From: a virus | Direction: 5' to 3' (one strand) | IMG/VR virus record: IMGVR_UViG_3300022200_003077 | Location: 1-23,244 of that record | DNA: 23,244 bases | In this document: piece after piece, positions 9 to 22,884 of the stretch | Layout: each line of letters starts with the position of its first letter | How positions within the stretch are numbered: position 1 is the stretch's first letter | The notes under the pieces: generated by a model | What the model was told of the DNA's origin: nothing | Databases searched by the model: none | What the model saw: only the letters and a program-made list of their open reading frames with translations | Translations under genes and position numbers: made by a program

Positions 9-23
9 CGTTAATAATATAAC
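9..23 (+). promoter_or_regulatory. Late-promoter-like motif, copy A (partial)
   Basis: CGTTAATAATATAAC lies directly before the ATG at 24. It matches the downstream block of the motif found before 13688, 16665, 17857 and 20620. The upstream ACAAA block would fall left of the window and cannot be read. Promoter function is inferred from recurrence only. Confidence 0.45.
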
Positions 24-584
24 ATGAATCAACAAGCACTTTTCATAACTCCAGCCGAAATCGTAAAATTTACGCCTATTGGTGGCAATGTAGATACCGA
101 CCGCTACATATACATTATATATGAGCAACAAAGGTATTTAATTGAAGACATAATCGGAACGGCACTATATGAGAAAATTGCAACGGACATCCTAAGCCAA
201 ACCCCGCTTACTGGCTTATATGAAACAGTACACGAAAACTATTTAAAGCCTATTTTATACAATGCCGTATTTAGCGAGTACGTTTTAACGGGGCAATATA
301 ACGTACAAGATAGCGGAATTTATAAAGCATTACCAACAAATAGCGAAAGCGCGCCTATTGATGAGGTGAGATTTTTTGCAAATAATTACAAAGCAAAGGC
401 AGATGTTTGGGTAGGTAGGTTGCAGAAATGGCTATGTGATGTAGGGGTGCAAATTCCAGAATATCAAGATGACCAACCAAATGACTTTGACCAGCACCCG
501 AATAGGGACGTTAATATAGTAGGCGGTTTTTACTTGCCAGGTCGCATGGTAAAAAAGTGGTATCATGAGGATATTTCGAGGTAG
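24..584 (+). CDS. Head-tail connector/adaptor-like structural protein
   Basis: This 186-residue soluble protein has no signal peptide or membrane segment. It resembles the DUF6712-type proteins of Bacteroidota phages (my recollection, not a search). Conserved-looking features are the N-terminal block around residues 8-45, a central LKPILYNAVFSEYV helix, and a tryptophan-containing helix at about 125-140. Such proteins sit between capsid and tail genes and probably act as head-tail joining or completion proteins. The gene starts 12-15 nt after the late motif CGTTAATA, so it may head a transcription unit that runs through the fibre and lysis genes. Its 3' end overlaps the next gene by 20 bp, which suggests translational coupling. 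The connector role is inferred from context and is not certain. Confidence 0.5.
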   Translation: MNQQALFITPAEIVKFTPIGGNVDTDRYIYIIYEQQRYLIEDIIGTALYEKIATDILSQTPLTGLYETVHENYLKPILYNAVFSEYVLTGQYNVQDSGIYKALPTNSESAPIDEVRFFANNYKAKADVWVGRLQKWLCDVGVQIPEYQDDQPNDFDQHPNRDVNIVGGFYLPGRMVKKWYHEDISR

Positions 585-5737: not shown

Positions 5738-5767
5738 TTGCATAAGTTATAAATAGGTTTATATTTG
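5738..5767 (+). promoter_or_regulatory. Host-type Bacteroidota promoter for the early genes
   Basis: TTG at 5738-5740 and TATATTTG at 5760-5767 are separated by 19 bp, matching the Bacteroidota -33/-7 consensus (TTG and TAnnTTTG). It lies 23 bp before the ATG at 5791. It would let the unmodified host polymerase start the replication operon on infection. Confidence 0.8.
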
Positions 5768-5790: not shown

Positions 5791-6090
5791 ATGAAACAAA
5801 ATAAACATTTCCCACGTGTTACTACTATACACGAAAATAAAAACGGCGTTACCACAATCACCGTTAAGGACAAACTAAAAGAAGTTTATAACCTTGCAAG
5901 TGCTGGCGTTAAGCAATCCGCTGCAATAGCTACTGGTGTTAAATTGCCTAACTACTTACACAGCGATAAACCCGAAAAATTAAAGGAGCGCGTTAAGGCA
6001 ATTGAAACGGCACAAGCTAAACACGTACAGGATTCACAAGAAAGGTTAAACCAGATTAAAGTTATAGCGCATGAGGTTATCAGAGGTTAA
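5791..6090 (+). CDS. Small basic protein, first gene of the early operon
   Basis: This 99-residue, lysine-rich protein is not a family I recognise. Residues 5-25 look like a beta hairpin. Residues 28-60 include VYNLASAGVKQSAAIATGV, which could be a short helix-turn-helix. Residues 62-97 form a charged helix. It is the first gene after the host-type promoter, which is where early regulators or host-takeover proteins are often encoded. Its end overlaps the DnaA-like gene by 20 bp. A DNA-binding or regulatory role is a guess from composition and position. No catalytic motif is visible. Confidence 0.4.
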   Translation: MKQNKHFPRVTTIHENKNGVTTITVKDKLKEVYNLASAGVKQSAAIATGVKLPNYLHSDKPEKLKERVKAIETAQAKHVQDSQERLNQIKVIAHEVIRG

Positions 6091-10716: not shown

Positions 10717-11124
10717 ATGGAAAACTGGAAAGAAATACCTTCATTTGCTGGATATTATGAAGCTAGCGATTTAGGACGCATAAGAAGAAAAAAAGGAGAA
10801 ACAATATACAAAGACGGGCGCGTTGCAAAGTTCTCTCAAACGATACTTAAACCTTCATTAAACCACAAGGGTTACAATAGGGTTTACCTATCTATGAAAT
10901 CTAAAAAGTATACTAAGACTGTTCATAGATTAGTTGCTGAAACTTTTATAGACAACCCAGAGTCAAAGAAAACCGTTAATCATATAAATATGGATAAGCT
11001 AGACAATAGTGTATCTAATTTAGAATGGATGACTAATAAGGAAAATATGAGGCACGCTTTTGCTAATGGTGCATATGATGAGAGAAATAAATACTGCATC
11101 AAAAATATAACTGACAACATTTAA
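10717..11124 (+). CDS. Free-standing NUMOD4-HNH homing endonuclease
   Basis: The 135-residue protein starts with a NUMOD4 DNA-binding motif (ENWKEIPSFAGYYEASDLGRI at 2-22, given with its variable tail to about 48). It continues with an HNH nuclease core: VHRLVAETF (His70), then TVNHINMDKLDNSVSNLEW with His89 and Asn101. The C-terminal segment HAFANGAYDE resembles the extra DNA-binding helix of such enzymes. It makes a site-specific double-strand break or nick to spread its own gene. No intron surrounds it, so it is free-standing. It is AT-richer than its neighbours and sits 1 bp before a helicase gene whose P-loop is interrupted, which may be its target site. A weak -7-like TATATTTA lies at 10705-10712. 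Confidence 0.85.
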   Translation: MENWKEIPSFAGYYEASDLGRIRRKKGETIYKDGRVAKFSQTILKPSLNHKGYNRVYLSMKSKKYTKTVHRLVAETFIDNPESKKTVNHINMDKLDNSVSNLEWMTNKENMRHAFANGAYDERNKYCIKNITDNI

Positions 11125-12578: not shown

Positions 12579-12606
12579 TTGCATATTAAAATAAAGGTGT
12601 ATATTG
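12579..12606 (+). promoter_or_regulatory. Possible host-type promoter
   Basis: TTG (12579-12581) and TATATTG (12600-12606) are 18 bp apart, close to the Bacteroidota -33/-7 consensus with one weak position. It lies 20 bp before the ATG at 12626 and could drive the small membrane protein, VRR-NUC and sigma genes. Confidence 0.5.
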
Positions 12607-12625
12607 CGCTAACTAAAAGTAAACT

Positions 12626-12847
12626 ATGACACTAACACTAACACTAACAAGCATAGCAATAGGCTACTTTATTTATTTAGCCGCTGCATATTTTGGATAT
12701 ATTCCACCTAGCTATTACAACATAACGCACAAGGCGCAAGGTTACGAGGTGGTAGCCGAAACGCCTTTGTGTCCGTTTTACATTAAGATGCACGATGGCT
12801 ATTTTGAAACGATAGAAGAAGCTGAAGATTTTGCTTTAAATTTATGA
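12626..12847 (+). CDS. Small protein with N-terminal membrane segment
   Basis: The 73-residue protein begins with MTLTLTLTSIAIGYFIYLAA, a hydrophobic stretch that is a likely membrane anchor. The soluble tail (about 30-73) contains YFETIEEAEDFALNL. The first codons are made of ACACTA repeated in tandem (TLTLTLT). I do not recognise the family. It follows a possible host-type promoter and overlaps the VRR-NUC gene by 4 bp (ATGA), so it appears to be co-transcribed with the nuclease and sigma genes. A membrane location is the only property that the sequence supports. Confidence 0.5.
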   Translation: MTLTLTLTSIAIGYFIYLAAAYFGYIPPSYYNITHKAQGYEVVAETPLCPFYIKMHDGYFETIEEAEDFALNL

Positions 12848-13197
12848 GTTTACCAAGCGGAGAAGATAGATTACAAGCAGACGCATACCGTTGGTTTCAT
12901 AACACGTACCCACACTTACGCGGCTTGCTTAATTACAACCACAACAACAGCCGCAATGTAATCGAGGGCGCAAAGAATAAAGCAATGGGTTTGCAAAAGG
13001 GGCGTAGTGATATGGTTTTGTATCTCGCTGGTCGGGCGTTCATGATTGAATGGAAAACGGCAAAGGGAACGCAATCAGCAAAGCAAAAGCAATGGCAGGC
13101 GCTAATAGAAAGCCACGGGTTTAGTTACTATTTAGTTCGCAGCGTTGAGGAATTTAAACACTTAATCACAATACTATGCAGCAGCTTTCAAAACTAG
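12844..13197 (+). CDS. VRR-NUC domain nuclease
   Basis: The 117-residue protein is a stand-alone VRR-NUC domain, a PD-(D/E)xK-like nuclease family. The conserved Glu in SGEDRLQ is at about 7. The catalytic core is GRSDMVLY (Asp56), then FMIEWKT (Glu69, Lys71), and the QKQWQALIESHGFSYYLVRS segment closes the fold. Phage VRR-NUC proteins are thought to cut branched DNA or flaps, so it may resolve recombination intermediates or trim replication products before packaging. It starts by a 4-bp overlap with the upstream gene and overlaps the sigma gene by 22 bp. The family call is firm and the substrate is inferred. Confidence 0.82.
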   Translation: MSLPSGEDRLQADAYRWFHNTYPHLRGLLNYNHNNSRNVIEGAKNKAMGLQKGRSDMVLYLAGRAFMIEWKTAKGTQSAKQKQWQALIESHGFSYYLVRSVEEFKHLITILCSSFQN

Positions 13198-13655
13198 CCG
13201 AACTAGATACCTACTGGCGAAACCTAGCCTTTACCATTTGCGGCTGTCACCTGTTAGCAGATGATTTGGTGCAAGATATGTATTTAAAAATATACGAGCG
13301 AAACCCACCCAGTTGGAATAAGCGATATGTTTACCGAACTATCCACAACCTATTTATAGACGAACTACGACGCACTAAAAAGCAAACCACCCTAGACTAC
13401 ATTGATGTAAGCACCGAAGAAACCGATAGCGACTGCATAGAGGCTTTGATGCAAAAGGCACTAAGCGATTTAGGCGACCCTAGTACAAGTAAAGCGGTAA
13501 TGATTAACATGGATTACACGGTTCGCAGCTCGGCACGGAAAATGGGTTACAGCGCGTATAAACTTTGGTCTAAGGTTAAAGCTGCAAAGGAAGAACTAAG
13601 CGAGCGCGAGGATTTAAAACAGGCTTATGAGCAACTTAAAAACGGGGAGATATAA
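13176..13655 (+). CDS. Phage-encoded sigma-70/ECF-like sigma factor
   Basis: The 159-residue protein has an ECF-like layout. Region 2 covers about 12-69: LLADDLVQDMYLKIYE matches the core-binding helix, and YVYRTIHNLFIDELRRTKK matches the -10 recognition helix. A short acidic linker leads to a region-4-like helix-turn-helix at about 103-141 (SKAVMINMDYTVRSSARKMG, then YKLWSKVKAAKEEL). It should bind host RNA polymerase core and direct it to new promoters. It is the last gene of the early block. A candidate late promoter (13651-13687) overlaps its stop codon and leads into the packaging genes. Near-identical motifs precede four other late genes. A late-gene sigma factor is the obvious inference. 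Region 4 is degenerate, so the exact class is uncertain. Confidence 0.75.
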   Translation: MQQLSKLAELDTYWRNLAFTICGCHLLADDLVQDMYLKIYERNPPSWNKRYVYRTIHNLFIDELRRTKKQTTLDYIDVSTEETDSDCIEALMQKALSDLGDPSTSKAVMINMDYTVRSSARKMGYSAYKLWSKVKAAKEELSEREDLKQAYEQLKNGEI

Positions 13656-13687
13656 AACAAAAAACCACACTTTAACGTTAATATAAT
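13651..13687 (+). promoter_or_regulatory. Late-promoter-like motif, copy B
   Basis: TATAAAACAA (13651-13660) and CGTTAATATAAT (13676-13687), followed at once by ATG 13688. The C of ACAAA (13658) and the C of CGTT (13676) are 18 nt apart, as in copies C, D and E. It begins inside the stop codon region of the sigma gene. Confidence 0.65.
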
Positions 13688-14056
13688 ATGGCAACACCTA
13701 AGAAAAAGAAAGCAACCAAGCCAGCCTCTAAGGGTCTAGGCGATACAATCGCAAAGGTTACTAAATGGGCAGGCATTGAACCATGTGAATCATGTAAGAA
13801 GCGACAGAACAAGCTTAACAAGCTAATCCCTTACAACTCGGTTAAAGACGAAATGACACAAGAGCAATTCCAAAGCTGGGAACAATGGGGCAAAGAGTGG
13901 AACGGTAACACGCTCAAGGATGACGATATGACATTAATAGAGGACACCTATAATTCAATAAGGCAGACCAACGTATCACCTTGCAGGACTTGCGGTGCTA
14001 GTGCATGGTCGCAGCTTATAATGGCAATTGATAGTATAGCTAGTAAGTATAAGTAA
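13688..14056 (+). CDS. CxxC-pair protein, late operon leader
   Basis: The 122-residue protein has a lysine-rich N-terminus (MATPKKKKATKPASKGLGD), then CESC (33-36) and CRTC (99-102), two CxxC pairs that could together hold a zinc ion. GLGDTIAKVTKWAGI followed by a CxxC knuckle is a pattern I associate with unnamed proteins next to terminase genes in flavobacterial phages. It directly follows late motif B and precedes the small terminase gene by 20 bp. A DNA-binding role in packaging or late regulation is plausible but inferred. No enzymatic motif was seen. Confidence 0.5.
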   Translation: MATPKKKKATKPASKGLGDTIAKVTKWAGIEPCESCKKRQNKLNKLIPYNSVKDEMTQEQFQSWEQWGKEWNGNTLKDDDMTLIEDTYNSIRQTNVSPCRTCGASAWSQLIMAIDSIASKYK

Positions 14057-14076
14057 AATCAATAATTGCAAACACA

Positions 14077-14358
14077 TTGAATGATAACAGACGAAATAAC
14101 GGAGGCAATAGCACTAAGGCAACTGGTGGCATAGACAGACGTAAGAACGAGTATAAGGATGCACTTAAACAAGCGGCAACCATTGATGACGTTGTGGACG
14201 TAATAGTAAAGCTAAAAGAGGTAGCAAGCACAGGTGACGTACCAGCGATTAAGCTATTTTTGGAATACTATGTAGGCAAACCAAAAGACAGCCTAGACAT
14301 CACCTCAGACGGTGGTGCAATAAACTTTAAAGACCTCATTCAGTTTGGTAACACTTAG
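14077..14358 (+). CDS. Probable small terminase subunit
   Basis: The 93-residue protein has a basic N-terminus (NDNRRNNGGNSTKATGG), a helical middle and the phrase AIKLFLEYYVGKPKDSLDIT, which I associate with small-terminase-like proteins that precede large-subunit genes. It would recognise phage DNA and load the large subunit. Its 3' end overlaps the large-terminase frame by 14 bp, supporting coupled translation. It is shorter than many small terminases, and no clear helix-turn-helix is visible at the N-terminus, so the call rests partly on position. Confidence 0.6.
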   Translation: MNDNRRNNGGNSTKATGGIDRRKNEYKDALKQAATIDDVVDVIVKLKEVASTGDVPAIKLFLEYYVGKPKDSLDITSDGGAINFKDLIQFGNT

Positions 14359-15544
14359 CCCGAAATATGAACTACTAGGGACGGATAGTAAATTTAGCAT
14401 AGTAACAGGTGGGCGTGGGTCGGGCAAATCTTTCGGGGTTGCCTTGCTTACGCTTTTGCTTAGCTACGAACGTGGGCATACTATACTTTTCACGCGTTAC
14501 ACTTTAAGGTCTGCCGCGATTAGTATCATTCCCGAGTTCCTGGAGAAAATAGAACTACTAGGGCGTGATGGTGATTTTGCCGTTACTAAGGATGAGATTA
14601 TAAACCGCAAGTCTGGCACGCGGATTCTATTTAGAGGTATCAAAACCTCTAGCGGTGACCAGACGGCAAACCTAAAATCCATTACAGGATTAAGCACGTG
14701 GGTACTAGACGAAGCGGAGGAACTTATGGACGAAGATAAGTTCGACACTATCAATTTATCGGTAAGGCAAAAGGGCGTACAGAACCGTGTCATCTTAATG
14801 ATGAACCCAACTACAAAAGAGCATTGGATATATCGCAGGTTCTTCCAGGAGCGTGGCGTATCGGGTGGTTGGAACGGAACTAAGGAGGACGTGAATTACA
14901 TACATACGACATACCTAGACAACTCTACCAATCTAAGCCCTAGCTACATTAAGGACATAGAGCGTTTAAAGCGAACCAATCTAAGCAAGTTTGAGCATAA
15001 GATTATGGGGGGCTGGTTAGATAAAGCGGAGGGAGTAGTATTTCAGAATTGGGAATTTGGCGACTTTAACCCAGACGGATTACAGACTAGTTTCGGGCTT
15101 GACTTTGGTTTTAGTATTGACCCAGATGCACTGACCGAAGTAGCAATCGACAAGACTAAAAGGGTGATATATTTAAGGGAGTGTATTTATGAAAAAGGTT
15201 TACAGACCAACGTTCTTAGTGAGCGACTAAATGCAATCACAGACAAACGCTTAATAATTGCAGATAGTGCAGAGCCGCGTTTAATTGCCGACCTAAGAAG
15301 TAGGGGCGCGAATATACAAGCGGTCAAAAAAGGCACAATCGAAAGCGGTGTTCAAATGTTACTAGATTACAAGTTGGTAGTTTCACCAGAAAGTAGTAAT
15401 TTAGCCAAAGAATTAAATAACTATACCTATTCAGATAGGGCAAGCAAATTGTACATAGATGACTGGAATCACTTACTGGACGGAATTAGGTATAACGTAA
15501 CGTACCATTTAGATAATCCTCATAAAGGAAAGTACTATGTTTAG
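14345..15544 (+). CDS. terL: Terminase large subunit
   Basis: The 399-residue protein is the packaging motor. Walker A GGRGSGKS is at 22-29, Walker B WVLDEAEE at about 119-126, and a coupling motif LMMNPTTKEHW at 151-161. The nuclease domain contains GLDFGFSIDPDA (Asp253), IIADSAEPRL (Asp307) and the C-terminal NHLLDGIRY (Asp379), which together form the RNase H-like active site. The start is TTG at 14345. The frame opens only at 14324, and no ATG or GTG lies between there and Walker A, so a non-ATG start is required. This may lower its expression relative to the overlapping small subunit. It resembles PBSX/Terminase_3-6 types. The portal gene that usually follows is missing. Confidence 0.92.
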   Translation: MVTLSPKYELLGTDSKFSIVTGGRGSGKSFGVALLTLLLSYERGHTILFTRYTLRSAAISIIPEFLEKIELLGRDGDFAVTKDEIINRKSGTRILFRGIKTSSGDQTANLKSITGLSTWVLDEAEELMDEDKFDTINLSVRQKGVQNRVILMMNPTTKEHWIYRRFFQERGVSGGWNGTKEDVNYIHTTYLDNSTNLSPSYIKDIERLKRTNLSKFEHKIMGGWLDKAEGVVFQNWEFGDFNPDGLQTSFGLDFGFSIDPDALTEVAIDKTKRVIYLRECIYEKGLQTNVLSERLNAITDKRLIIADSAEPRLIADLRSRGANIQAVKKGTIESGVQMLLDYKLVVSPESSNLAKELNNYTYSDRASKLYIDDWNHLLDGIRYNVTYHLDNPHKGKYYV

Positions 15545-15695
15545 GACTGACATAGAACAAAAGGTAATGCTAGTACGTCGATACATTCACGATTTTAAAG
15601 GCGTGGATATCGGTAACATTAAACTTAACGACGGTGAGGATTTAGCAAAGCTAGATTACGCTTTAAAATTTGCACAACAATACTTTAACGAATGA
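15537..15695 (+). CDS. Small ORF between terminase and tail chaperone, 52 residues
   Basis: ATG 15537 overlaps the terminase end by 8 bp, and the TGA at 15693-15695 overlaps the next ATG (ATGA). The product is 52 residues, charged and helical (begins MFRTDIEQKVMLVRRYIHDF, ends LKFAQQYFNE). It fills exactly the 147-bp gap between two well-supported genes with coupling overlaps on both sides, which strongly suggests that it is translated. I do not recognise the family. No membrane segment is present. Confidence 0.65.
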   Translation: MFRTDIEQKVMLVRRYIHDFKGVDIGNIKLNDGEDLAKLDYALKFAQQYFNE

Positions 15696-16195
15696 AACTA
15701 AGAATACCTACAAGCCAAAACGATATAACGTTAAGGCAGTACATAGAAGCGCAAGAGAAGCCCGAACGCGAGCAGATGGCAATATACCTAAATATCACAC
15801 CAGAAACGCTTGCAGAGTTACCTCAATCGGTTTATGACGAAGCTTTAGTTTGCATAGTTACGGCTTTGCAAGAGGATCAGGAAACGCACGTGAAGCGGTT
15901 CACCATAAACGGGGTGGAGTACGGCTTTGTACCTAATTTAGACCAGATAGAAAGTGGCGCGTTTGCTATTGCCGAAAGTTCAATACAAGAGGTAACAACG
16001 GCAGCGGAATTTGTTAACGCGATGTACAGACCTATTAAGCGCAAGGCTGGCGTGTTCTATTCAGTTAAGCCATTTGCAGCGGATAGGGTTACTCAAATGC
16101 TAGATGCACCGCTTTCGGCTTACACGAGTAGTGTGGTTTTTTTTTACAATTTAGGCAACGACTTAACGAGTTATATCCAGAGTTATACACCGTAA
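15692..16195 (+). CDS. Tail assembly chaperone-like protein, short form
   Basis: The 167-residue zero-frame product resembles the gpG-type tail chaperones of flavobacterial phages. It has an N-terminal RQYIEAQEKPEREQMAIYLN region, then INGVEYGFVPNLDQIESGAF at about 73-92, then AEFVNAMYRPI at about 109-119. Such proteins wrap the tape-measure protein during tail assembly. Near its end the frame runs through nine T residues (T TTT TTT in frame at 16138-16144) and terminates 17 codons later at 16195. An overlapping -1 frame continues to 16386, as in classic G/GT gene pairs. There is no tape-measure gene next to it here. Confidence 0.65.
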   Translation: MKLRIPTSQNDITLRQYIEAQEKPEREQMAIYLNITPETLAELPQSVYDEALVCIVTALQEDQETHVKRFTINGVEYGFVPNLDQIESGAFAIAESSIQEVTTAAEFVNAMYRPIKRKAGVFYSVKPFAADRVTQMLDAPLSAYTSSVVFFYNLGNDLTSYIQSYTP

Positions 16196-16386
16196 GCAGC
16201 AAGCAAACTAATGCGGATATGGTCGAGGGCTTTGGCTTAAAGTGGGGTTGGTATCATACTTTTAATGTTATGGCTGGCGGCGATTACTTTAAACTTGAGC
16301 GCATTGAAAAAGAGCCACTAGGTGCAATACTTTACTTCCTAGCATATCAAAGCGACGTTACTAAATTGAACGCGCCTAAGAGTTAA
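15692..16386 (+). CDS. Tail assembly chaperone fusion via -1 frameshift (long form)
   Basis: If ribosomes slip back one base at T TTT TTT (16138-16144), residues 1-151 of the short form are joined to 80 residues of the -1 frame, giving a 231-residue protein that ends at 16386. The -1 frame is open from 16132 and encodes a typical-looking domain: NELYPELYTV, then GLKWGWYHTFNVMAGGDYFK, then LGAILYFLAYQSDV. It has no upstream start of its own. The only in-frame ATG (16219) would give 55 residues and cut the domain. This matches the gpG-gpGT arrangement of tailed phages. The end overlaps the convergent minus-strand gene by 11 bp. Confidence 0.6.
16138..16144 (+). promoter_or_regulatory. Predicted -1 ribosomal frameshift site (T TTT TTT)
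   Basis: The zero-frame codons here are GTT TTT TTT TAC inside a run of nine T (16137-16145). This satisfies the X XXY YYZ slippery pattern. The open -1 frame downstream and the gene family (tail chaperone) support real frameshifting. No stimulatory structure was worked out. Confidence 0.6.
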
Positions 16387-16618
16387 AATGCTTAATTAAT
16401 CGTTCTTTAAGTTGTAAGTCTAGTTCAAAATCGTCATTAAATAAGTTGGTCAACTCGCTTTCTTTTGGCGGGTCGTATGGGTGGTAAAAGTTACCTGTAT
16501 AAGTGTAGCAATATAACTCACCATTTATAAATGGTATGGTGTGAATGTTATAGCCCTTATTAATTAAGTACTCTTGAACTTTATCGTTATGCGCGTGGCT
16601 TTTAATTTTTACTATCAT
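16376..16618 (-). CDS. Minus-strand small protein of unknown function, 80 residues
   Basis: An 80-residue soluble protein is encoded against the direction of all surrounding structural genes. It begins MIVKIKSHAHNDKVQEYLIN and contains a tyrosine-rich GELYCYTYTGNFYHPYDPP stretch, with an acidic C-terminus. I do not recognise it. A perfect host-type -7 box (TATATTTG, 16635-16642) lies 16 bp upstream of its start on the same strand, so it can be expressed early by host polymerase. Its 3' end overlaps the chaperone fusion by 11 bp. The coding call is supported by the promoter and by the matching arrangement of the second minus-strand gene at 17601-17810. It could be a host-interaction or superinfection gene (inference). 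Confidence 0.6.
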   Translation of the reverse strand: MIVKIKSHAHNDKVQEYLINKGYNIHTIPFINGELYCYTYTGNFYHPYDPPKESELTNLFNDDFELDLQLKERLIKHFNS

Positions 16619-16630
16619 GCTCTTGAATTT

Positions 16631-16664
16631 AAAACAAATATAAGCTATTTCACGTTAATATAAT
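16631..16664 (+). promoter_or_regulatory. Late-promoter-like motif, copy C
   Basis: AAAACAAA (16631-16638) and CGTTAATATAAT (16653-16664) precede ATG 16665. The C-to-C distance is 18 nt. The 12 bases before the ATG are identical to those of copy B. Confidence 0.65.
16635..16642 (-). promoter_or_regulatory. Host-type -7 box for the minus-strand gene
   Basis: TATATTTG on the minus strand, a perfect TAnnTTTG, lies 16 bp before the start at 16618. No TTG was seen at the expected -33 distance. The same bases (CAAATATA on the plus strand) form the upstream block of late motif C. Confidence 0.55.
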
Positions 16665-17114
16665 ATGAATGGATACTATCTTTTATTAGACTACATTAAG
16701 AGCCTGTTAGATGCCGACGTAGATTGTAACACGGTTACTACTGGCGTGGACTTGAGTAGCACCGACCTAAACCGTAAAGACATCTACCCACTCGCACATA
16801 TCGAAGCAAACGACGGAACGTTCTTAGATAACGTGATTCAGATTAATTTAGAACTGTTTAGCCTTGACCAATTAGATTTTAGCAAAGAGTTGGAAGTGGG
16901 TCAGAAGTTTATAGGCAACGATAATGAGCAAGACGTTTATAATACTACGCTGTACGTGCTTAGGCGCGTTTATAACAAGCTTTCGGTTAGTGATGGCATA
17001 TCAATACTAGGCGATGCAAATATACAGAAAACGGAGCGCGTAGAGAATAACCTCATCGGCTGGTCTATGACTTTGACTGTTGAAATTTCTGATAGTGTGA
17101 TGCGTTTCTGCTAG
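16665..17114 (+). CDS. Tail-terminator/completion-like protein
   Basis: The 149-residue protein begins MNGYYLLLDYIKSLL, a helix followed by alternating strands and helices. This length and pattern, and its place just before an HK97-gp10-like gene, resemble tail-terminator or neck proteins (gpU-like). The middle includes DVYNTTLYVLRRVYNKL, and the C-terminus is a strand-rich segment GWSMTLTVEISDS. It follows late motif C directly and the next gene starts 4 bp after it. The structural role is inferred from context. No direct motif proves it. Confidence 0.5.
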   Translation: MNGYYLLLDYIKSLLDADVDCNTVTTGVDLSSTDLNRKDIYPLAHIEANDGTFLDNVIQINLELFSLDQLDFSKELEVGQKFIGNDNEQDVYNTTLYVLRRVYNKLSVSDGISILGDANIQKTERVENNLIGWSMTLTVEISDSVMRFC

Positions 17115-17117
17115 GCT

Positions 17118-17612
17118 ATGCAAAACAGCGAAGTACAAATAGAACTAGACAAATTCGGAAAGCGATTAGTACAGGCTTCACGTAGCAGCCTTACGCAACA
17201 AAAGGTAAAGGCAAGCGGTGAACTTTACAAGTCTATTGGCTACGATTTAAAAGTAAGCCCTAATTCATTCCAGTTTAGTTTCGGCTCTACTTTGCCATAC
17301 TCCACGTTTCAAGATCAAGGGGTGAGTGGAACTGAAAAAAAATATAACACGCCTTTTAGTTACAAAAGTAAGAAGCCACCAGCAAGCGTATTTATAAGCT
17401 GGGCAAAGCAAAAGGGAATTAAGCCACGTGGTAAAAATGGGCGGTTTACATCCTATGAAAGTTTCGGCTTTGCGGTTGCAAATAGCGTATTTAGGAAAGG
17501 TATCAAACCAAAGAACTTTATTACCCGTCCATTTGAAAAAGCCTTTAAAGATTTGCCCGATGCGTTAATAGAAGCTTATGGATTGGAACTGGATAGGACG
17601 TTACTCAGATAA
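17118..17612 (+). CDS. HK97 gp10-like tail completion protein
   Basis: The 164-residue protein has the hallmarks of the HK97-gp10/minor-tail group as seen in Bacteroidota phages. The N-terminal helix ends in ASGELYKSIGYDL. FGSTLPYSTFQDQGVSG (about 55-71) is the typical strand-turn where a small beta domain holds an aromatic/acidic cluster. FISWAKQKGI, and GIKPKNFITRPFEKAF near the C-terminus, are also characteristic. Such proteins bridge head and tail or close the tail. The 3' end overlaps the convergent minus-strand gene by 12 bp. Family placement rests on recognised sequence patterns rather than a search. Confidence 0.65.
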   Translation: MQNSEVQIELDKFGKRLVQASRSSLTQQKVKASGELYKSIGYDLKVSPNSFQFSFGSTLPYSTFQDQGVSGTEKKYNTPFSYKSKKPPASVFISWAKQKGIKPRGKNGRFTSYESFGFAVANSVFRKGIKPKNFITRPFEKAFKDLPDALIEAYGLELDRTLLR

Positions 17613-17810
17613 CGCCTTAATAATATCCTTTTCGCTTATTATCTCAAAGTCATAGTGATACGTTTCTTGCCCTTTCATTGATAGCGCGTATCTAATGCCG
17701 TCATTCCTAACTAGGTAGCCAGTTACTAAATGCGGGTACTGGTCTGGGTCGGTTATAAGGAAAACCAGTTCGCCTATGTTGTGTTGTGTGTCTATTATTT
17801 GCATATTCAA
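17601..17810 (-). CDS. Minus-strand small protein of unknown function, 69 residues
   Basis: The 69-residue acidic protein begins MNMQIIDTQHNIGELVFLIT and contains GYLVRNDGIRYALSMKGQET, with a KDIIKALSE ending. I recognise it only as the kind of short beta-barrel-like protein seen in Bacteroidota phages. It has no known function. It lies against the transcription of the tail genes. A perfect host-type -7 box (TATATTTG, 17827-17834) is 16 bp upstream of its start, the same distance as for the other small minus-strand gene. Its end overlaps the plus-strand tail gene by 12 bp. The likely role is in early host interaction, but this is inference. Confidence 0.6.
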   Translation of the reverse strand: MNMQIIDTQHNIGELVFLITDPDQYPHLVTGYLVRNDGIRYALSMKGQETYHYDFEIISEKDIIKALSE

Positions 17811-17822
17811 AACGTCTTAATA

Positions 17823-17856
17823 AAAACAAATATACAACATTTTTCGTTAATAATAT
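17823..17856 (+). promoter_or_regulatory. Late-promoter-like motif, copy D
   Basis: AAAACAAA (17823-17830) and CGTTAATAATAT (17845-17856) precede ATG 17857. The C-to-C distance is again 18 nt, with a T-run just before CGTT. Confidence 0.65.
17827..17834 (-). promoter_or_regulatory. Host-type -7 box for the second minus-strand gene
   Basis: TATATTTG on the minus strand lies 16 bp before the start at 17810. It is made from the same bases as the upstream block of late motif D, so the site could act in both directions. Confidence 0.55.
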
Positions 17857-19281
17857 ATGCCAGTATTCTCAACAATTACGATAAATTTCTCAGATGCTTT
17901 CGAGCCAAACACAGCCACGCCATTAATCTTTATTAATGCTTTTGATGCAATTCAAAACGCTGGTCTTTCGGTTGTAGTCGAAAGGATAGTAGCAACCCGC
18001 ACGCAATTTGGCGAGTTTTCAACTGGTACGGATGACGTTACGCAAGCTGTATTATATAAAGATGCTCTGGATTTAGACCTCGACCCTTTGGAATATGAGG
18101 TATCTATAATAGGCAACAATGTTACAATAGGTAGCCTAAGGCAGGAAATATCATTCACCGATTTAGTAATAGGGCAACCGAACACAAGCCGTGCTACTTT
18201 TGTTATAAATAACGATGCGATAAATATACCACGCACGGAGGGTATCATTCCAGCGCGTTCTAACTACTATGTAACGCGTCCTATTGTAGATCCCAACGTG
18301 GTTAGTCAAACAGTTAAGATGTGGTTTAATTCTGACCTAATAGACCCCGACTACCAGCAACGAACGCCAGACTATCAGTCTACTCAACTAAGACCAAGTG
18401 CAAACTGGGAGAATTTTGACCTAGCTATAACACAATACGCACGCGACTTTATAAACCCGAAACTTCCAACGTTCACGGCTGGAATAGTTGATAGCGTAGC
18501 GGGGTCTGTAATTACTAGCAGCATATCTGTACGTAACAATCTGGAAGCAATAGACCAGCCTATTTTAAACCAGGCTGTAACCACACTAGGCTATGCAACC
18601 TATCAGCAAGGGGCAACGCCTAAATATAGTCAGCTTATTCTTTTGAGTTCCCAACGCCACCAAGTTAAGCGCGGTGAACTTATAATCGTACCAGTAAACA
18701 CAAACGCGGTTACAACTTCAATAGTATTTACCAATCCAGCAGGCGATTTTTTAGGGTTATATACATTAATAGCAAGCGGTGATATAACTAAGCAGATACA
18801 ATATGTTTGCTTTTCTACTGCGGGGCTTACCGATGACTTTGTAGAAGTGAACGGAACGCATATTTTTGAGTTGATAGATGAGTGCTTGTATGAAACACAG
18901 CCAGTCCGTTTCTTAAATAGGTACGGTGTATGGGAAAACCTTACATTCTTTAAAGCCGAAAAAGAAAGTTTGCAGGTAACTCGTGAGGGGAATTTTAAGA
19001 ACAACTATGTAAACGGTGGCACGTATGACACTACACGCCATTTATACCGCAATACGGACACGAACGCGCGTAGGTCGTTACAACTTACCACAGGTTATAT
19101 TAGCGAGCAGCAAAACGCAGCTATTGATGACTTGCTTTTGTCAGATTATGTGTACCTCGAAAACGGTGAGCCTATGGAAGTCGACACTAATAGCGTGGAT
19201 AAAAAGACCCGCATAGTTGATAAGCTAATTAACTACGAAATCGCTTTTAAATATAGTAGTGATTTGGTGCAAGTGGTTTAA
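17857..19281 (+). CDS. Tail/baseplate structural protein
   Basis: The 474-residue protein is beta-rich and has no enzymatic motif. The N-terminal third carries repeated strand pairs. The segment RPIVDPNVVSQTVKMWFNSDLIDPDY (given as positions about 141-166) is followed by a linker. The C-terminal third contains ECLYETQPVRFLNRYGVWEN (about 340-360) and ends with KLINYEIAFKYSSDLVQVV. The FLNRYGVW pattern is one I associate with a tail-structural family in flavobacterial phages. It starts right after late motif D. A role in the tail tip or baseplate is inferred from the size and from the large tail protein encoded downstream. The two were probably adjacent before the PAPS-reductase cassette was inserted. 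Confidence 0.55.
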   Translation: MPVFSTITINFSDAFEPNTATPLIFINAFDAIQNAGLSVVVERIVATRTQFGEFSTGTDDVTQAVLYKDALDLDLDPLEYEVSIIGNNVTIGSLRQEISFTDLVIGQPNTSRATFVINNDAINIPRTEGIIPARSNYYVTRPIVDPNVVSQTVKMWFNSDLIDPDYQQRTPDYQSTQLRPSANWENFDLAITQYARDFINPKLPTFTAGIVDSVAGSVITSSISVRNNLEAIDQPILNQAVTTLGYATYQQGATPKYSQLILLSSQRHQVKRGELIIVPVNTNAVTTSIVFTNPAGDFLGLYTLIASGDITKQIQYVCFSTAGLTDDFVEVNGTHIFELIDECLYETQPVRFLNRYGVWENLTFFKAEKESLQVTREGNFKNNYVNGGTYDTTRHLYRNTDTNARRSLQLTTGYISEQQNAAIDDLLLSDYVYLENGEPMEVDTNSVDKKTRIVDKLINYEIAFKYSSDLVQVV

Positions 19282-19315
19282 AATACCTTATCGGGTATAT
19301 TACACATAAGCGTAA

Positions 19316-19338
19316 TAAAGTGCAATTATTACACTTTA
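19316..19338 (+). terminator. Weak hairpin between convergent genes
   Basis: TAAAGTG and CACTTTA form a 7-bp stem with a 9-nt loop, followed by further short inverted repeats. It lies between the plus-strand tail gene and the minus-strand PAPS-reductase gene, so it may end transcription from both sides. The lack of a long T-run keeps this tentative. Confidence 0.35.
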
Positions 19339-19390
19339 AAGTAATAGTCTTACTATTGATGCTTGAGTTTATCCGATGTTATGCCCCATT

Positions 19391-20293
19391 TTAAGAAGCC
19401 TTGCAGAAACAATCCGTTTCAAATTCAAACAAATCACATTGTTGTTGTGAAAGTTCGTGTAAGTCTTGTGCTTTAGTAAATGGTCTTTGTGCCATTTCAA
19501 CTAATTCTTCAATGCTTTTATTAGTTCTTAAATCAAATCTTGGTATTTCTTCGGAACTATATTTTTGTTCCATTTCAAGCCACCATTTAGCACTTTCAGG
19601 ATTTTCTTTTATAATTGTCAATCTCTTTTTCAATGACTTCTTAAAACATAAATCGCAATTGCCTTGATAGTCTTTTAATCCTAAATCAAAACTTTGCTTT
19701 TCCCACCAATTACGAATAAATCGGCTATCAATTTTAACTTCGTCGCATAAAGGATAAATTACTTTTTCAATTTCAGCATTTACGCTTTTACGATGTGCTT
19801 CATCGGCTCTAATTCCTACTACTTTAATAATATCAAAGTTTTTATAATTATCACGTAAATAAGCATCAATAGGTCTTTGTTTTAATTCCCTTGTACAATT
19901 AGAAGCCATATTGTTTGGTAATGGATATTTTTTAAGCATAGCTTCAAATGGTTCTCCATTTCTTGAAGCAGTTTCATAATCAACTATTGTATAAGTTGTT
20001 CCTTTGCCTTTTTCGTTGTTAACTAATGCTTCAAGATAAACCAAATTCAATCCAAATTCCTTATCGCATTTATCCGCAAATTGCAAAGTTTCTTCACGTT
20101 CTTTTCCAGTATTCATAAAAACAAAAATGCAGTTTTTATAGTGTGGATGTTCTTTCATATACTTTGCTAAAAATGCTGAAGTTCGACCACCAGAAAACAA
20201 AACCACGTACAAAAACGAGGCATAACACGTGCTATAAGAAATAGCGGTTTCGGTGCTTTCTGAAAGTTCAGGTGTGTTTTTAAAATTAGTCAT
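19391..20293 (-). CDS. PAPS reductase-family (PP-loop) protein
   Basis: The 300-residue protein belongs to the phosphoadenosine-phosphosulfate reductase/PP-loop superfamily, which adenylates or reduces sulfur substrates. The PP-loop SGGRTSA is at 34-40, followed by FVFMNTGKEREETL, CTREL (about 133-137), and VVGIRADEAHRKS (158-170). A metal-binding CDLC is at 213-216, and Cys295 and Cys297 lie in the tail. Phage members are linked to DNA modification or sulfur metabolism, but the substrate is unknown. Residues 1-30 look foreign to the fold and are encoded by a repeat, so the true start (ATG 20293, or a GTG or TTG near residues 28-30) is open. The gene is AT-richer than its neighbours and is reversed within late genes, so it is probably a recent acquisition. 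Confidence 0.78.
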   Translation of the reverse strand: MTNFKNTPELSESTETAISYSTCYASFLYVVLFSGGRTSAFLAKYMKEHPHYKNCIFVFMNTGKEREETLQFADKCDKEFGLNLVYLEALVNNEKGKGTTYTIVDYETASRNGEPFEAMLKKYPLPNNMASNCTRELKQRPIDAYLRDNYKNFDIIKVVGIRADEAHRKSVNAEIEKVIYPLCDEVKIDSRFIRNWWEKQSFDLGLKDYQGNCDLCFKKSLKKRLTIIKENPESAKWWLEMEQKYSSEEIPRFDLRTNKSIEELVEMAQRPFTKAQDLHELSQQQCDLFEFETDCFCKAS

Positions 20294-20338
20294 AAATTTA
20301 AAGTTTAGTTTTTATTAATCCGCTACTTCTCATAGCAC
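20229..20338 (-). repeat. 19-bp inverted repeat around the PAPS-reductase start
   Basis: GTGCTATAAGAAATAGCGG (20229-20247) and, on the other strand, GTGCTATGAGAAGTAGCGG (20320-20338) match at 17 of 19 positions. The ORF start codon lies between the arms. One arm is inside the ORF and codes for its atypical N-terminus. Confidence 0.7.
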
Positions 20339-20421
20339 AACCGTTGTGTGTAATACTACATTCCATCTCCAAATAAAGTTTCTATTTGTGTTTATACAAG
20401 CAACTAACCGTTATGTGAAAT
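20339..20421 (+). repeat. Direct repeat AACCGTT(G/A)TGTG
   Basis: AACCGTTGTGTGTAAT (20339-20354) recurs as AACCGTTATGTGAAAT (20406-20421), 14 of 16 bases identical, 67 bp apart. It may mark the edge of an inserted cassette. Confidence 0.55.
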
Positions 20422-20477
20422 TAATAGTCTTTCCTATCAGCCAGTCTTATGTTAATTTAATCCGTATGACTTAATAC

Positions 20478-20556
20478 CCCCTAAAATCGGATTAGCGATA
20501 CAATCATTAACACGTCCTACATTTGCGACAACAAAGGTTTTCTTTCTTTTTAGGGG
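20478..20556 (+). repeat. Inverted repeat CCCCTAAAA / TTTTAGGGG
   Basis: Perfect 9-bp arms at 20478-20486 and 20548-20556, with 61 bp between them, lie in the spacer before the large tail gene. This could be a protein-binding pair or an insertion scar. Confidence 0.5.
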
Positions 20557-20580
20557 TTGATGTTACCGCAATAATACAAC

Positions 20581-20619
20581 TATAAAACAAAATACGCAAG
20601 TTTCACGTTAATAAAGTGC
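20581..20619 (+). promoter_or_regulatory. Late-promoter-like motif, copy E
   Basis: TATAAAACAA (20581-20590, identical to copy B) and CGTTAATAAAGTGC (20606-20619) precede ATG 20620. The C-to-C distance is 18 nt. No minus-strand gene starts here, so the motif is not explained by a reverse promoter. Confidence 0.65.
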
Positions 20620-22884
20620 ATGAACTTACAGATTTACATATCAGACGAGCAAGGAATAAACGAGCGAAAAATAGACTTATTCCCGTCCGATACTATAAAT
20701 TTAAACCAGTCGATACAATCACTCCGCGACCTTACTAAAGTTTTTACCGACTTTACGCAGTCGTTTAAAGTTCCCGCAAGCGATAGCAATAACGCGACGT
20801 TTAAGCATTACTACCAGTCGCAAATAGATGACGGCTTCGATGCTAGGACAAAAAGAAAGGCACGCATAGAAATTAACGGCATTACTTTTAAGCTGGGCAA
20901 AATGCAGCTAAACTCGGTAGGTATCAAATCCAACAAACCCGAGTTTTACGACATTCAATTCTTTGGAAATACTATTGACATTAAAGACTTAGTAGGTGAT
21001 GACACGCTACGAGATTTAGATACACTTGATGCGCTTGATTTTGAATATACCGATAGCAACGTGCGAGCTAGGCTAGAAACAAATGCAAACGTTTCTTTTA
21101 GTCTGACTTCATACGCAAAGCGGTTTCTATTTAATAGCGACGGAAATGTGAACACGCCAGAAAGTGTAAACATAAAGTATGACCCTACGTACACAAACGG
21201 TATTGACTGGAAAGATTTAAAAGGGTACGTTAAGGTAAGTAAAATCATTGATGCAATAGAGCAAGAGTACGGGTTTACATTCAGCCGTGACTTCTTTGGG
21301 CGTGCTGAATTTCAACAGCTTTACATGAGTTTAGGGAATGGTAAGAGTACTAGGGAATTACTTTCTGAAAACTTGCTAGGCGAATATAATAGGGTGGTTT
21401 TTAGGGGTTCGGGTTCTAATTATATTCAAAATTCCTACATTATAAATATGCCTGTATCAAATCAAGCAGTTGATTATAGGCTTAAAATAGAAGTTAACGG
21501 GGAGGTTCTTTTTCAAACTGGTATAGTAAGAGGTAATATAAATATAAGGTTTAACCAACAAAACGCGCCTACTGGCAACTACAATGTAAAGTACTACATT
21601 GAAGCGGAGCGCGCTATGAATGTCACCCCTAGATTAAGATTGGAAAGTGTTAATTTTCCATTAGGTAGTTCAACTCTAATAGACGAAACCGTTTCAATTA
21701 CCACACTAAACCCTACCTTTAAAGTTAGCGAAAGCATAGCAAACATAAAGGTTCTAGACTGGTTTTCTGCAATATTAAAGTCTTTTAATCTAGTAATAGT
21801 ACCACAGCCAAATGGCACGCTGTACGTTAATGACCTAAATAGCTGGTATCTGCAAGGTGCAATACTGGACGTAAGTGATTACATAGATATAAGCACGCTA
21901 CAAGTATCGCGCGGTGAACTATTTAAAGAGATTAGCTTCAAGTACGAGGACACTCCGCAAATACTAGCGGCAGAATATGAATCTACTTTCGGTAAGCAAT
22001 TTGGCGCGGAGGAAATAAGCCTTTTAGGGCTTGCAACCGATGACACCTTAGAAGTAAAGCTACCATTTGAAAACCCACAATTTGAGCGCATAACAAACAG
22101 CCTAGTGCAATACGCTTACATTGTAGATGGTGAACTTGCGCCTTACGATAATAAGCCATTTTTAGCCTATTTGCCGACGTTATTACTAGATAGAAGTAAT
22201 AGGATAGGTTTTAATACGGACAGTTCTTACATCGCTTTAAACCAAGCCAACGTGCCTAGTCATTCAATCACGCTTTCGGGTGGTTTTACCGCGCAATTTG
22301 CAGATGAATTTAGCGAATATAACAGGACTTCGCTATCAGATAACTTTTATTCACGTTTTTACAAAGATTATTTTGACGACCTATTCAGTCCTAAGCGTAG
22401 AAAGTACTCATTTGATGCAGCTTTCCCACCGTTACTATTCTCAAAAATAGAAATAAACGATAGGCTAATCATTAAAGGCGAACGATATGTAATAGATAAC
22501 ATTGATACCGACTTAATAACAGGCAAAACTAAGCTTACTTTGCTTAATGATTTATTTGAAACGCTAATAAAAACAGAAACAAGCAGCACATTAAGTGAGA
22601 AATTTGGAGTTTTTAATGACGCTGGGTCATTCTATTACGTAGGTGGTGAGCAGATAGCGATAGCCTTTACAGATGATGACTTTATTACAATAGATAGCCA
22701 GCCGCCACTAGTTAGCTTTACACTATCAGAAAACGCCACGCTTGCAGATAGGGTCGGAGTCATTCAAATACAGGACGGACTTAGCGACCCTACTTTCGTA
22801 GTGCTGCAACCTTTTAACGATTTTAGAAAACTTGCTTTTGATAGCAACCAAATAACTTTTGATAATACAAATATAACATTTTAA
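20620..22884 (+). CDS. Large tail/baseplate hub-like structural protein
   Basis: The 754-residue protein begins MNLQIYISDEQG. Its conserved-looking N-terminal block is SLRDLTKVFTDFTQSFKVPA at about 35-54, followed by NATFKHYYQSQIDDGFDARTK at about 58-78 (with one residue between). I associate this block with a large tail protein family in flavobacterial and Cellulophaga phages. The rest is beta-rich, with a long middle domain (about 270-400) that looks AT-richer, then SKIEINDRLIIKGERYVIDN near 610-630. A baseplate or tail-hub role is inferred. It is the longest late gene in the window, starts behind late motif E, and the next fibre-type gene begins 2 bp after its stop. Confidence 0.6.
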   Translation: MNLQIYISDEQGINERKIDLFPSDTINLNQSIQSLRDLTKVFTDFTQSFKVPASDSNNATFKHYYQSQIDDGFDARTKRKARIEINGITFKLGKMQLNSVGIKSNKPEFYDIQFFGNTIDIKDLVGDDTLRDLDTLDALDFEYTDSNVRARLETNANVSFSLTSYAKRFLFNSDGNVNTPESVNIKYDPTYTNGIDWKDLKGYVKVSKIIDAIEQEYGFTFSRDFFGRAEFQQLYMSLGNGKSTRELLSENLLGEYNRVVFRGSGSNYIQNSYIINMPVSNQAVDYRLKIEVNGEVLFQTGIVRGNINIRFNQQNAPTGNYNVKYYIEAERAMNVTPRLRLESVNFPLGSSTLIDETVSITTLNPTFKVSESIANIKVLDWFSAILKSFNLVIVPQPNGTLYVNDLNSWYLQGAILDVSDYIDISTLQVSRGELFKEISFKYEDTPQILAAEYESTFGKQFGAEEISLLGLATDDTLEVKLPFENPQFERITNSLVQYAYIVDGELAPYDNKPFLAYLPTLLLDRSNRIGFNTDSSYIALNQANVPSHSITLSGGFTAQFADEFSEYNRTSLSDNFYSRFYKDYFDDLFSPKRRKYSFDAAFPPLLFSKIEINDRLIIKGERYVIDNIDTDLITGKTKLTLLNDLFETLIKTETSSTLSEKFGVFNDAGSFYYVGGEQIAIAFTDDDFITIDSQPPLVSFTLSENATLADRVGVIQIQDGLSDPTFVVLQPFNDFRKLAFDSNQITFDNTNITF

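Follow-up and report, generated by a model that had tools for sequence, protein, structure and literature searches.

The linear virus record IMGVR_UViG_3300022200_003077, from a marine phage and analysed over its full 23,244 bases (the window), raises the question of how a phage turns on its late genes. Its gene content is like that of the Nonlabens phages P12024S and P12024L (Inhavirus), which have the same sigma factor, late promoters and gene order; the terminase and the sigma factor are 68-69% and 66-67% identical, respectively, between the window and these two phages. The early/replication block closes with the gene at 13176-13655, and the terminase and structural genes come after it. An earlier note, made from the bases of the window, had taken this gene for a sigma factor and had proposed that it reads a set of near-identical late promoters. 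We consider it very likely that an early phage sigma factor of the ECF (extracytoplasmic function) type uses the host core RNA polymerase to read promoters of the form AAAAC-N17-CGTT and that the late mRNAs are leaderless or nearly so. The small sigma factor would be produced along with the early genes, would join the host core and would take it to the promoters ahead of the late operons; with the -10 element so near to the start codon, transcription would begin at, or within 3 nucleotides (nt) of, the A of the ATG. The features concerned are listed here; the late genes without a family name were taken from the list of open reading frames (ORFs).

13176..13655, plus strand: phage sigma factor gene, 159 residues, predicted ECF build (regions 2 and 4, low-confidence linker at about 74-83), from Pfam, TIGR02937, a PDB profile and model and fold matches
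9..16, plus strand: candidate late promoter 0, -10 block only (upstream DNA lies beyond the window edge), before the ATG at 24; motif search
24..584, plus strand: late gene, DUF6712 family (Pfam)
13654..13683, plus strand: candidate late promoter 1, AAAACAAA (-35) and CGTTAATA (-10), predicted +1 at 13688, the A of the ATG; motif search and matrix
13688..14056, plus strand: first late gene after the sigma gene, 122 residues
14345..15544, plus strand: terminase large subunit, downstream of late promoter 1 (Pfam Terminase_3, E value 1e-34)
16631..16660, plus strand: candidate late promoter 2, predicted +1 at 16665, the A of the ATG; motif search and matrix
16665..17114, plus strand: late gene, 149 residues, opens a late unit with 17118-17612
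17823..17852, plus strand: candidate late promoter 3, predicted +1 at 17857, the A of the ATG; motif search and matrix
17857..19281, plus strand: late gene, 474 residues
20584..20613, plus strand: candidate late promoter 4, -10 block 14 nt before the ATG at 20620, predicted +1 at about 20618, predicted leader 0-2 nt; motif search and matrix
20620..22884, plus strand: late gene, 754 residues

The sites and the sigma protein in the window

The pattern ACAAA-N14-CGTTAATA occurred exactly four times in the window, at 13657, 16634, 17826 and 20587, always on the plus strand, with the AAAACAAA blocks starting at 13654, 16631, 17823 and 20584. The first of these blocks overlaps the stop codon of the sigma gene (13653-13655), as the earlier note had reported. 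The distances that it had given as 12 to 15 nt before the ATGs of five late genes were also confirmed: from the start of CGTTAATA to the ATG we counted 12 nt for 13688, 16665 and 17857, 14 nt for 20620 and 15 nt for 24. The fixed spacing of the two blocks held exactly in all four copies, and AAAACAAA-N14-CGTTAATA was found in none of 300 simulated windows (0 of 150 with a Markov-1 and 0 of 150 with a Markov-3 model). An exact-pattern search of the window found no full two-block copy before early genes, again in agreement with what had been claimed. The downstream block was rejected as a stand-alone signal. Of its eight exact copies in the window, three lie at other places (509 on the plus, 4023 on the minus and 17563 on the plus strand), and with at most one mismatch 51 sites were found where 40 were expected, which is no enrichment. 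The significance rests on the two-block layout, CGTTAATA by itself being unspecific. Scoring of the two-block pattern with three mismatches was dropped as uninformative (153 matches in the window, 136 expected).

ECF sigma factors consist of regions 2 and 4 joined by a linker, with no regions 1.1 or 3, and many of them, though not all, are controlled by an anti-sigma factor. The 159-residue product of 13176-13655 has the two-region architecture: Pfam detected Sigma70_r2 (E value 1.3e-8), and an AlphaFold2 model built from 42 sequences (predicted local distance difference test 81, predicted template modelling score 0.47) has helical domains at residues 2-67 and 85-155 with a low-confidence linker at 74-83. 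A profile of 14 sequences, compared with solved structures, matched SigW and the SigL, SigH and SigE proteins of M. tuberculosis. For 29 of the 30 best fold matches in the PDB, the title names an ECF sigma chain (for 9n9q chain C, the chain name does), mostly from initiation complexes; the class of the remaining one, 9a4r, could not be assigned. The matches span most of the length of the protein with template modelling (TM) scores of 0.3-0.4, low values that we attribute to the uncertain arrangement of the domains in the model. As judged from sequence profiles and the predicted fold, including an alignment to TIGR02937 below its cut-off, the product is a small sigma factor of the ECF type, so that the gene call of the earlier note stood and gained a class. 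The P12024S gp33 and P12024L gp35 proteins are already annotated as 'containing Sigma-70 region 2'.

Within the sequences that could be scanned, most members of the family are viral. Among 600 pattern matches listed from viral contigs, at least 267 were confirmed as members, and 80 were kept; a search of 84,980 cellular genomes gave two sigma loci, both on metagenome-assembled contigs, with one 8-residue pattern that is similar to, but longer than, the viral one and misses copies lacking it. These contigs, labelled Caulobacteraceae and Proteobacteria (L148 and L149), carry a sigma relative 38-39% identical over 42-53 residues; they are perhaps phage contigs binned with bacteria.

The sites in related phages and their probable pairing with the sigma factor

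A matrix was built from the four window sites only and run on both strands of P12024S (35,700 bases) and P12024L (35,652 bases), a scan that the earlier note had proposed. In each genome, the seven best distinct sites stood directly before late genes, namely gp01, gp05, gp08, gp35, gp41, gp44 and gp45 in the numbering of P12024S, all on the plus strand and outside the early block. CGTT lies 12 nt before the ATG at six of the seven and 11 nt before it at gp35. Six P12024S spacers are N17, as in the window, and one is N16 (gp41). The site before gp08, the counterpart of late promoter 0 in the window, has both blocks.

The position of the -10 block was then counted in 136 loci plus two control loci, the sigma gene being found in 128 of them, with 1,561 ATG starts called by a simple ORF caller as the first in-frame ATG and dereplicated at 70% protein identity. 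The sigma loci contributed 633 dereplicated starts that are separated by 15 nt or more from the preceding same-strand gene. CGT stood exactly at -12 before 36 of these, spread over 28 of 122 loci; at other offsets before the same starts, the mean was 3.6 and the maximum 11. Before starts with a shorter gap, CGT at -12 was seen in 3 of 778 cases. The sites are also distributed unevenly about the sigma gene, with 27 of 236 starts downstream of it, 4 of 296 upstream and 0 of 77 on the opposite strand (Fisher test, 1.7e-8), a count that leaves out P12024S and the window, whose late genes flank the sigma gene on both sides. In 24 of 32 late sites, AC precedes CGT by 16 or 17 nt. The complete pattern ([AG]AC, 16-17 nt, CGT[TA], 8 nt, ATG; not dereplicated) had 55 matches on the sigma strand, compared with 12 on the opposite one; for three versions with a permuted -10 block, the corresponding counts were 13, 6 and 9 as against 11, 3 and 6. 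By its sequence, an AAC-type -35 element separated by 16-17 nt from a CGT-type -10 element has the form of an ECF promoter. The sites, their position, their conservation and their specificity for late genes are thus established here, as is the identity of the sigma factor.

In the clade L047-L069, a search for AA[AC]C-N15-19-CGTTA found few copies, none of them before gene starts. In 15 loci of this clade, the gene that follows the terminase is preceded by TGTTTATA at -12, with AAGAC 16 nt upstream; these sites, from a single clade, hint weakly at the promoter described above in a form with T instead of C at -12. A further clade (L013 at about 3713, L014 at about 9114, L119 at about 3854, L121 at about 10219, L124 at about 5848 and L129 at about 6906) has AAAC...TGTTATATTAT as its likely late promoter and, behind it, a mini-ORF of four codons that reads ATG, one variable codon, TAT or TTT, TTA and TGA. 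The stop codon of the mini-ORF overlaps the main ATG as ATGA, and the overlap is kept though the second codon varies.

If the sites belong to the phage sigma factor, they should be missing where it is missing. In six more distantly related Bacteroidota phages, in which no member of the sigma family was found at E values up to 0.1, CGT at -12 was indeed found before none of 240 starts (whole records, 310,399 bases; 0 of 186 on partial stretches). Among the six, Cellulophaga phage phiST contains one match to the two-block-plus-ATG pattern, off any called start; this phage carries its own annotated RNA polymerase and may use another strategy. In Riemerella phage CRP6 (41,139 of 46,699 bases) and Olleya phage Harreka_1 (25,864 of 43,175 bases), the matrix gave no site above chance; their terminases are 35-46% identical, and no sigma factor of this family was found in their whole records. 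Among 31 terminase matches, the sigma gene was kept in all 20 relatives with at least 52% terminase identity and at least 2.4 kilobases (kb) upstream of the terminase. Of the relatives lacking a sigma match, seven extend no more than 2.2 kb beyond the terminase on its upstream side and are possibly incomplete, and the other, L072, has a terminase identity of only 24%. Record OQ791282.1, named "Shigella phage Henu10", gave a terminase match with the same coordinates and score as Riemerella phage PT15 and is possibly mislabelled.

The pairing of sigma factor and promoter was assessed by comparing the octamers at -12 in 28 loci where a gap precedes the gene that follows the terminase. The distance between octamers followed the distance between sigma factors with a rank correlation of 0.65, which remained at 0.52 after correction for the terminase (permutation P 0.001); the terminase distance, corrected for the sigma factor, gave 0.09 (P 0.22). 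Divergence of the -10 octamer thus tracks that of the sigma factor better than that of the terminase, which is supportive of the pairing. Locus L045 resembles a natural swap. Its terminase is 72% identical to that of the window and closer to it than the P12024S terminase, its sigma factor is only 23-24% identical, and its two sites read AAC-N17-CGTATA (0.07 expected), where the window and P12024S mostly have CGTTAATA; the sequences agree with sigma-promoter pairing. At the second of these sites (L045:12817-12853), a start codon followed immediately by a stop, ATG-TAA, lies 11 nt after CGT. From the ECF form of the sites, their place before late genes, their absence at the 240 control starts and the covariation, we infer that the phage sigma factor joins the host core polymerase, binds these sites and directs initiation there, in line with the corresponding proposal of the earlier note.

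The predicted start of the late messages and rival explanations

Where would the late RNAs begin? When AAC-N16/17-CGTT[AT] was sought between genes irrespective of a following ATG, 75 sites were obtained after removal of exact duplicates only. An ATG-started ORF begins 11-15 nt after the C at 39 of the 61 sites on the sigma strand, at exactly 12 nt in 32 of them, and at 0 of the 14 on the other strand. At the remaining sigma-strand sites, the ORF start lies further on, is not an ATG or is missing within 120 nt; several of these remaining sites lie within about 1.5 kb downstream of the sigma gene and would, if real, give leaders of 20-30 nt. The base at -1 is T in 25 of 29 late sites, as expected if the RNA starts with the A of the ATG, compared with 316 of 778 short-gap starts. 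In the open complex of sigma-H, the -10 GTT lies at -11 to -9, with T-10 and T-9 unwound (PMC6411747), and AAC lies at -32 to -30 in the sigma-H promoter, counted along the printed scaffold. If the A of the ATG is taken as +1, these letters recur at identical positions in the phage N17 sites. Because of the exact -12 position, the T at -1 and the agreement with published ECF promoter numbering, the late mRNAs should be leaderless or nearly so. For the window sites 14 and 15 nt from the ATG, leaders of about 2-3 nt are expected. The near-leaderless messages of the earlier note are thereby strengthened as a prediction, from DNA, of where the RNA 5' ends lie.

The same promoters could be read by the same sigma factor with the RNA starting 3-8 nt further upstream, which would give short leaders instead of leaderless messages. 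Start sites are flexible, and with scaffolds for sigma-L all lengths of 4-7 nt between the -10 region and the downstream duplex worked, 6 being best (PMC6372665); late promoters 4 and 0 of the window are 14 and 15 nt from the ATG, and the first ORF start follows some of the two-block sites at a distance of 21-84 nt. However, short leaders do not predict a distance of exactly 12 nt in 32 of the 39 sites that had been chosen irrespective of an ATG, nor do they account for the T at -1 or for the sigma-H numbering that puts +1 on the A of the ATG, and we regard this variant as unlikely. A translation signal, the alternative named by the earlier note, is disfavoured much more strongly. Bacteroidetes lack Shine-Dalgarno sites and rely on the sequence context ahead of the gene, most of all an A at -3 (PMC6847099), and the fixed distance to the ATG would suit a downstream block that marks the site of initiation, with the upstream block a separate element. 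Such a signal should also precede genes inside operons, where the block is nearly absent (the 3 of 778 starts above); moreover, it leaves the upstream AC at fixed spacing unexplained, and sites 11, 13 or 14 nt from the ATG keep the spacing of the two blocks, though spacing was part of the search pattern. We therefore consider a translation signal highly improbable.

A further question is whose sigma factor reads the sites. Host ECF factors read CGT-type -10 boxes too (PMC9723704), so that a host sigma factor could contribute, and the phage protein could then be, say, an accessory or anti-host factor. This possibility has to contend with the difference between 36 of 633 starts in phages with the phage sigma factor and 0 of 240 in six phages without it, with a -10 octamer that follows the phage sigma factor more than the terminase and with the retention of the sigma gene in all 20 close terminase relatives, and we think it quite improbable. 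Other observations also count against initiation by the phage sigma factor as outlined above. No CGT at -12 was found in 94 of the 122 loci that yielded starts or before 209 of the 236 gap-separated starts downstream of the sigma gene, and many units and loci therefore have no recognised promoter. Three of the seven P12024S scores (18.6, 16.5 and 13.3) lie inside the range of the best chance matches of ten simulations, and these three sites draw their weight from position, not score. The covariation analysis used 28 loci without dereplication, and a single clade with TGTT for CGTT supplies 15 of them. As to the protein, Pfam detects region 2 and not region 4; TIGR02937 (sigma70-ECF) aligns residues 15-143 with 33.5 bits, below the cut-off of 42.9, which the L045 homologue exceeds with 54.9 bits; and just one PDB fold match has an E value below 0.001 (best, 3.8e-4). 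Finally, no TAnnTTTG box was found driving the sigma gene in the window.

Possible activation of the sigma gene and comparison with known systems

Such a box was found in a subset of relatives. In 11 of 49 sigma loci, TA[ACT][ACT]TTTG is placed 11-13 nt ahead of an ATG, which is that of the sigma gene itself in six and that of a gene 220-420 nt before it in five. The 49 loci have at least 120 nt upstream of the sigma gene and were thinned by k-mer similarity, with related phages remaining; in 150 random late stretches, no box was found at 11-13 nt. P12024S gp29, four genes before the sigma gene and in the same direction, has TATATTTG at -12. In these phages, the box at the same distance from the ATG suggests a leaderless cascade, in which host sigma-A would serve the sigma gene, or a small gene a few hundred bases ahead of it, and the phage sigma factor would in turn serve the late genes. 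In the window, TATATTGC at 12600-12607, 26 nt before the ATG at 12626 and two genes ahead of the sigma gene, resembles the TAnnTTGY (SM5) box of F. psychrophilum (PMC9723704); it could drive the sigma operon.

Host-type boxes also occur at the late promoters themselves. The opposite strand has TATATTTG at the -35 block or next to it in two of the four full late promoters of the window and in three of seven in P12024S, facing small divergent ORFs, out of totals of only 5 and 13 copies, respectively. The copies of note in the window are as follows.

16635..16642, minus strand: host-type -7 box TATATTTG, overlaps the -35 block of late promoter 2, faces the ORF 16376-16618; box search
17827..17834, minus strand: host-type -7 box TATATTTG, overlaps the -35 block of late promoter 3, faces the ORF 17601-17810; box search
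5760..5767, plus strand: host-type -7 box TATATTTG before the early ORF 5791-6090, predicted leader about 19 nt; box search

At the overlapping sites, we infer mutual exclusion of host and phage holoenzymes. A wider reading joins these elements: the first step of the lytic switch would use host-type promoters joined directly to the start codon of the sigma gene, or to that of a small gene ahead of it, the second would use ECF promoters of the phage's own fused to the ATGs of late operons, and binding of the phage holoenzyme to late -35 halves that overlap a divergent host-type promoter would silence the neighbouring early gene. That both steps run on leaderless mRNAs in a large phage family, with silencing of this kind, is a tentative proposal, nearly as apt to hold as to fail; many of the phages concerned probably infect Bacteroidota. 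Few mRNAs of such hosts are leaderless: the share is 5.5% in F. psychrophilum (PMC9723704), leaders exceed 10 nt in 87% of the predicted transcripts of F. johnsoniae (PMC6847099), and about 3.7% of 5' untranslated regions are shorter than 10 nt in B. thetaiotaomicron. If the wider reading is true, the phages bypass the leader that most host mRNAs carry.

A PAPS-reductase-domain gene (19391-20293, minus strand) lies opposite to and flanked by late genes in the window, and the annotated P12024S record has no gene matching it in that interval. The ORF 10717-11124, which on visual inspection resembles an HNH homing endonuclease, lies between the probable genes for primase and helicase. P12024L has genes annotated as 2OGFeDO oxygenase, glucosyltransferase and methyltransferase (L039:16207-18674) in the place where P12024S has an ATPase/GNAT gene and small genes (L038:16313-17855), and the exchanged module may modify DNA bases.

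Phage-encoded sigma factors are known, and T4 gp55 and SPO1 gp28 and gp33-gp34 serve late or middle genes. Like the proposed system, they redirect the host core RNA polymerase in time; they are not of ECF build, and the late transcripts of T4 and SPO1 are not known to be leaderless. Among the listed publications naming P12024S or P12024L, no title on their transcription was found, and the open-licence literature available to us, with most subscription journals outside its scope, yielded no ECF-type phage sigma factor with a mapped late regulon in Bacteroidota phages. With a leaderless late regulon, natural promoters and messages would be available for studying leaderless initiation in bacteria of a phylum that has no Shine-Dalgarno sites. 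Sigma factor and promoter appear to covary, and the pairs may serve as a natural series for ECF specificity and as orthogonal expression tools; the layout recurs in many related phages and is now directly testable.

The late promoters of phiKZ (TATG) are similar in that a late motif containing the letters ATG lies at the start site; they differ in being read by a phage multisubunit polymerase, in having the final G as +1 and in having no -35/-10 pair (PMC4666361). There is also a likeness to ECF (group IV) sigma-70 factors, which are two-domain proteins like the phage sigma factor; counted from the A of the ATG as +1, the phage promoter elements are positioned as theirs are. The SigH promoter of M. 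tuberculosis (GGAACA, 17 bp, GTT) and the flavobacterial SM6 motif have the AAC-type -35, the CGTT-type -10 and the 16-17-nt spacer of the phage sites. Unlike the known ECF systems, the present one is phage encoded, has an A-rich -35 element (AAAAC) and a promoter apparently fused to the start codon, and its sigma factor in the window scores below the curated ECF cut-off. A phage sigma switch is thus already known in kind; what the sequences present as new is an ECF-type factor with late promoters built onto the start codon.

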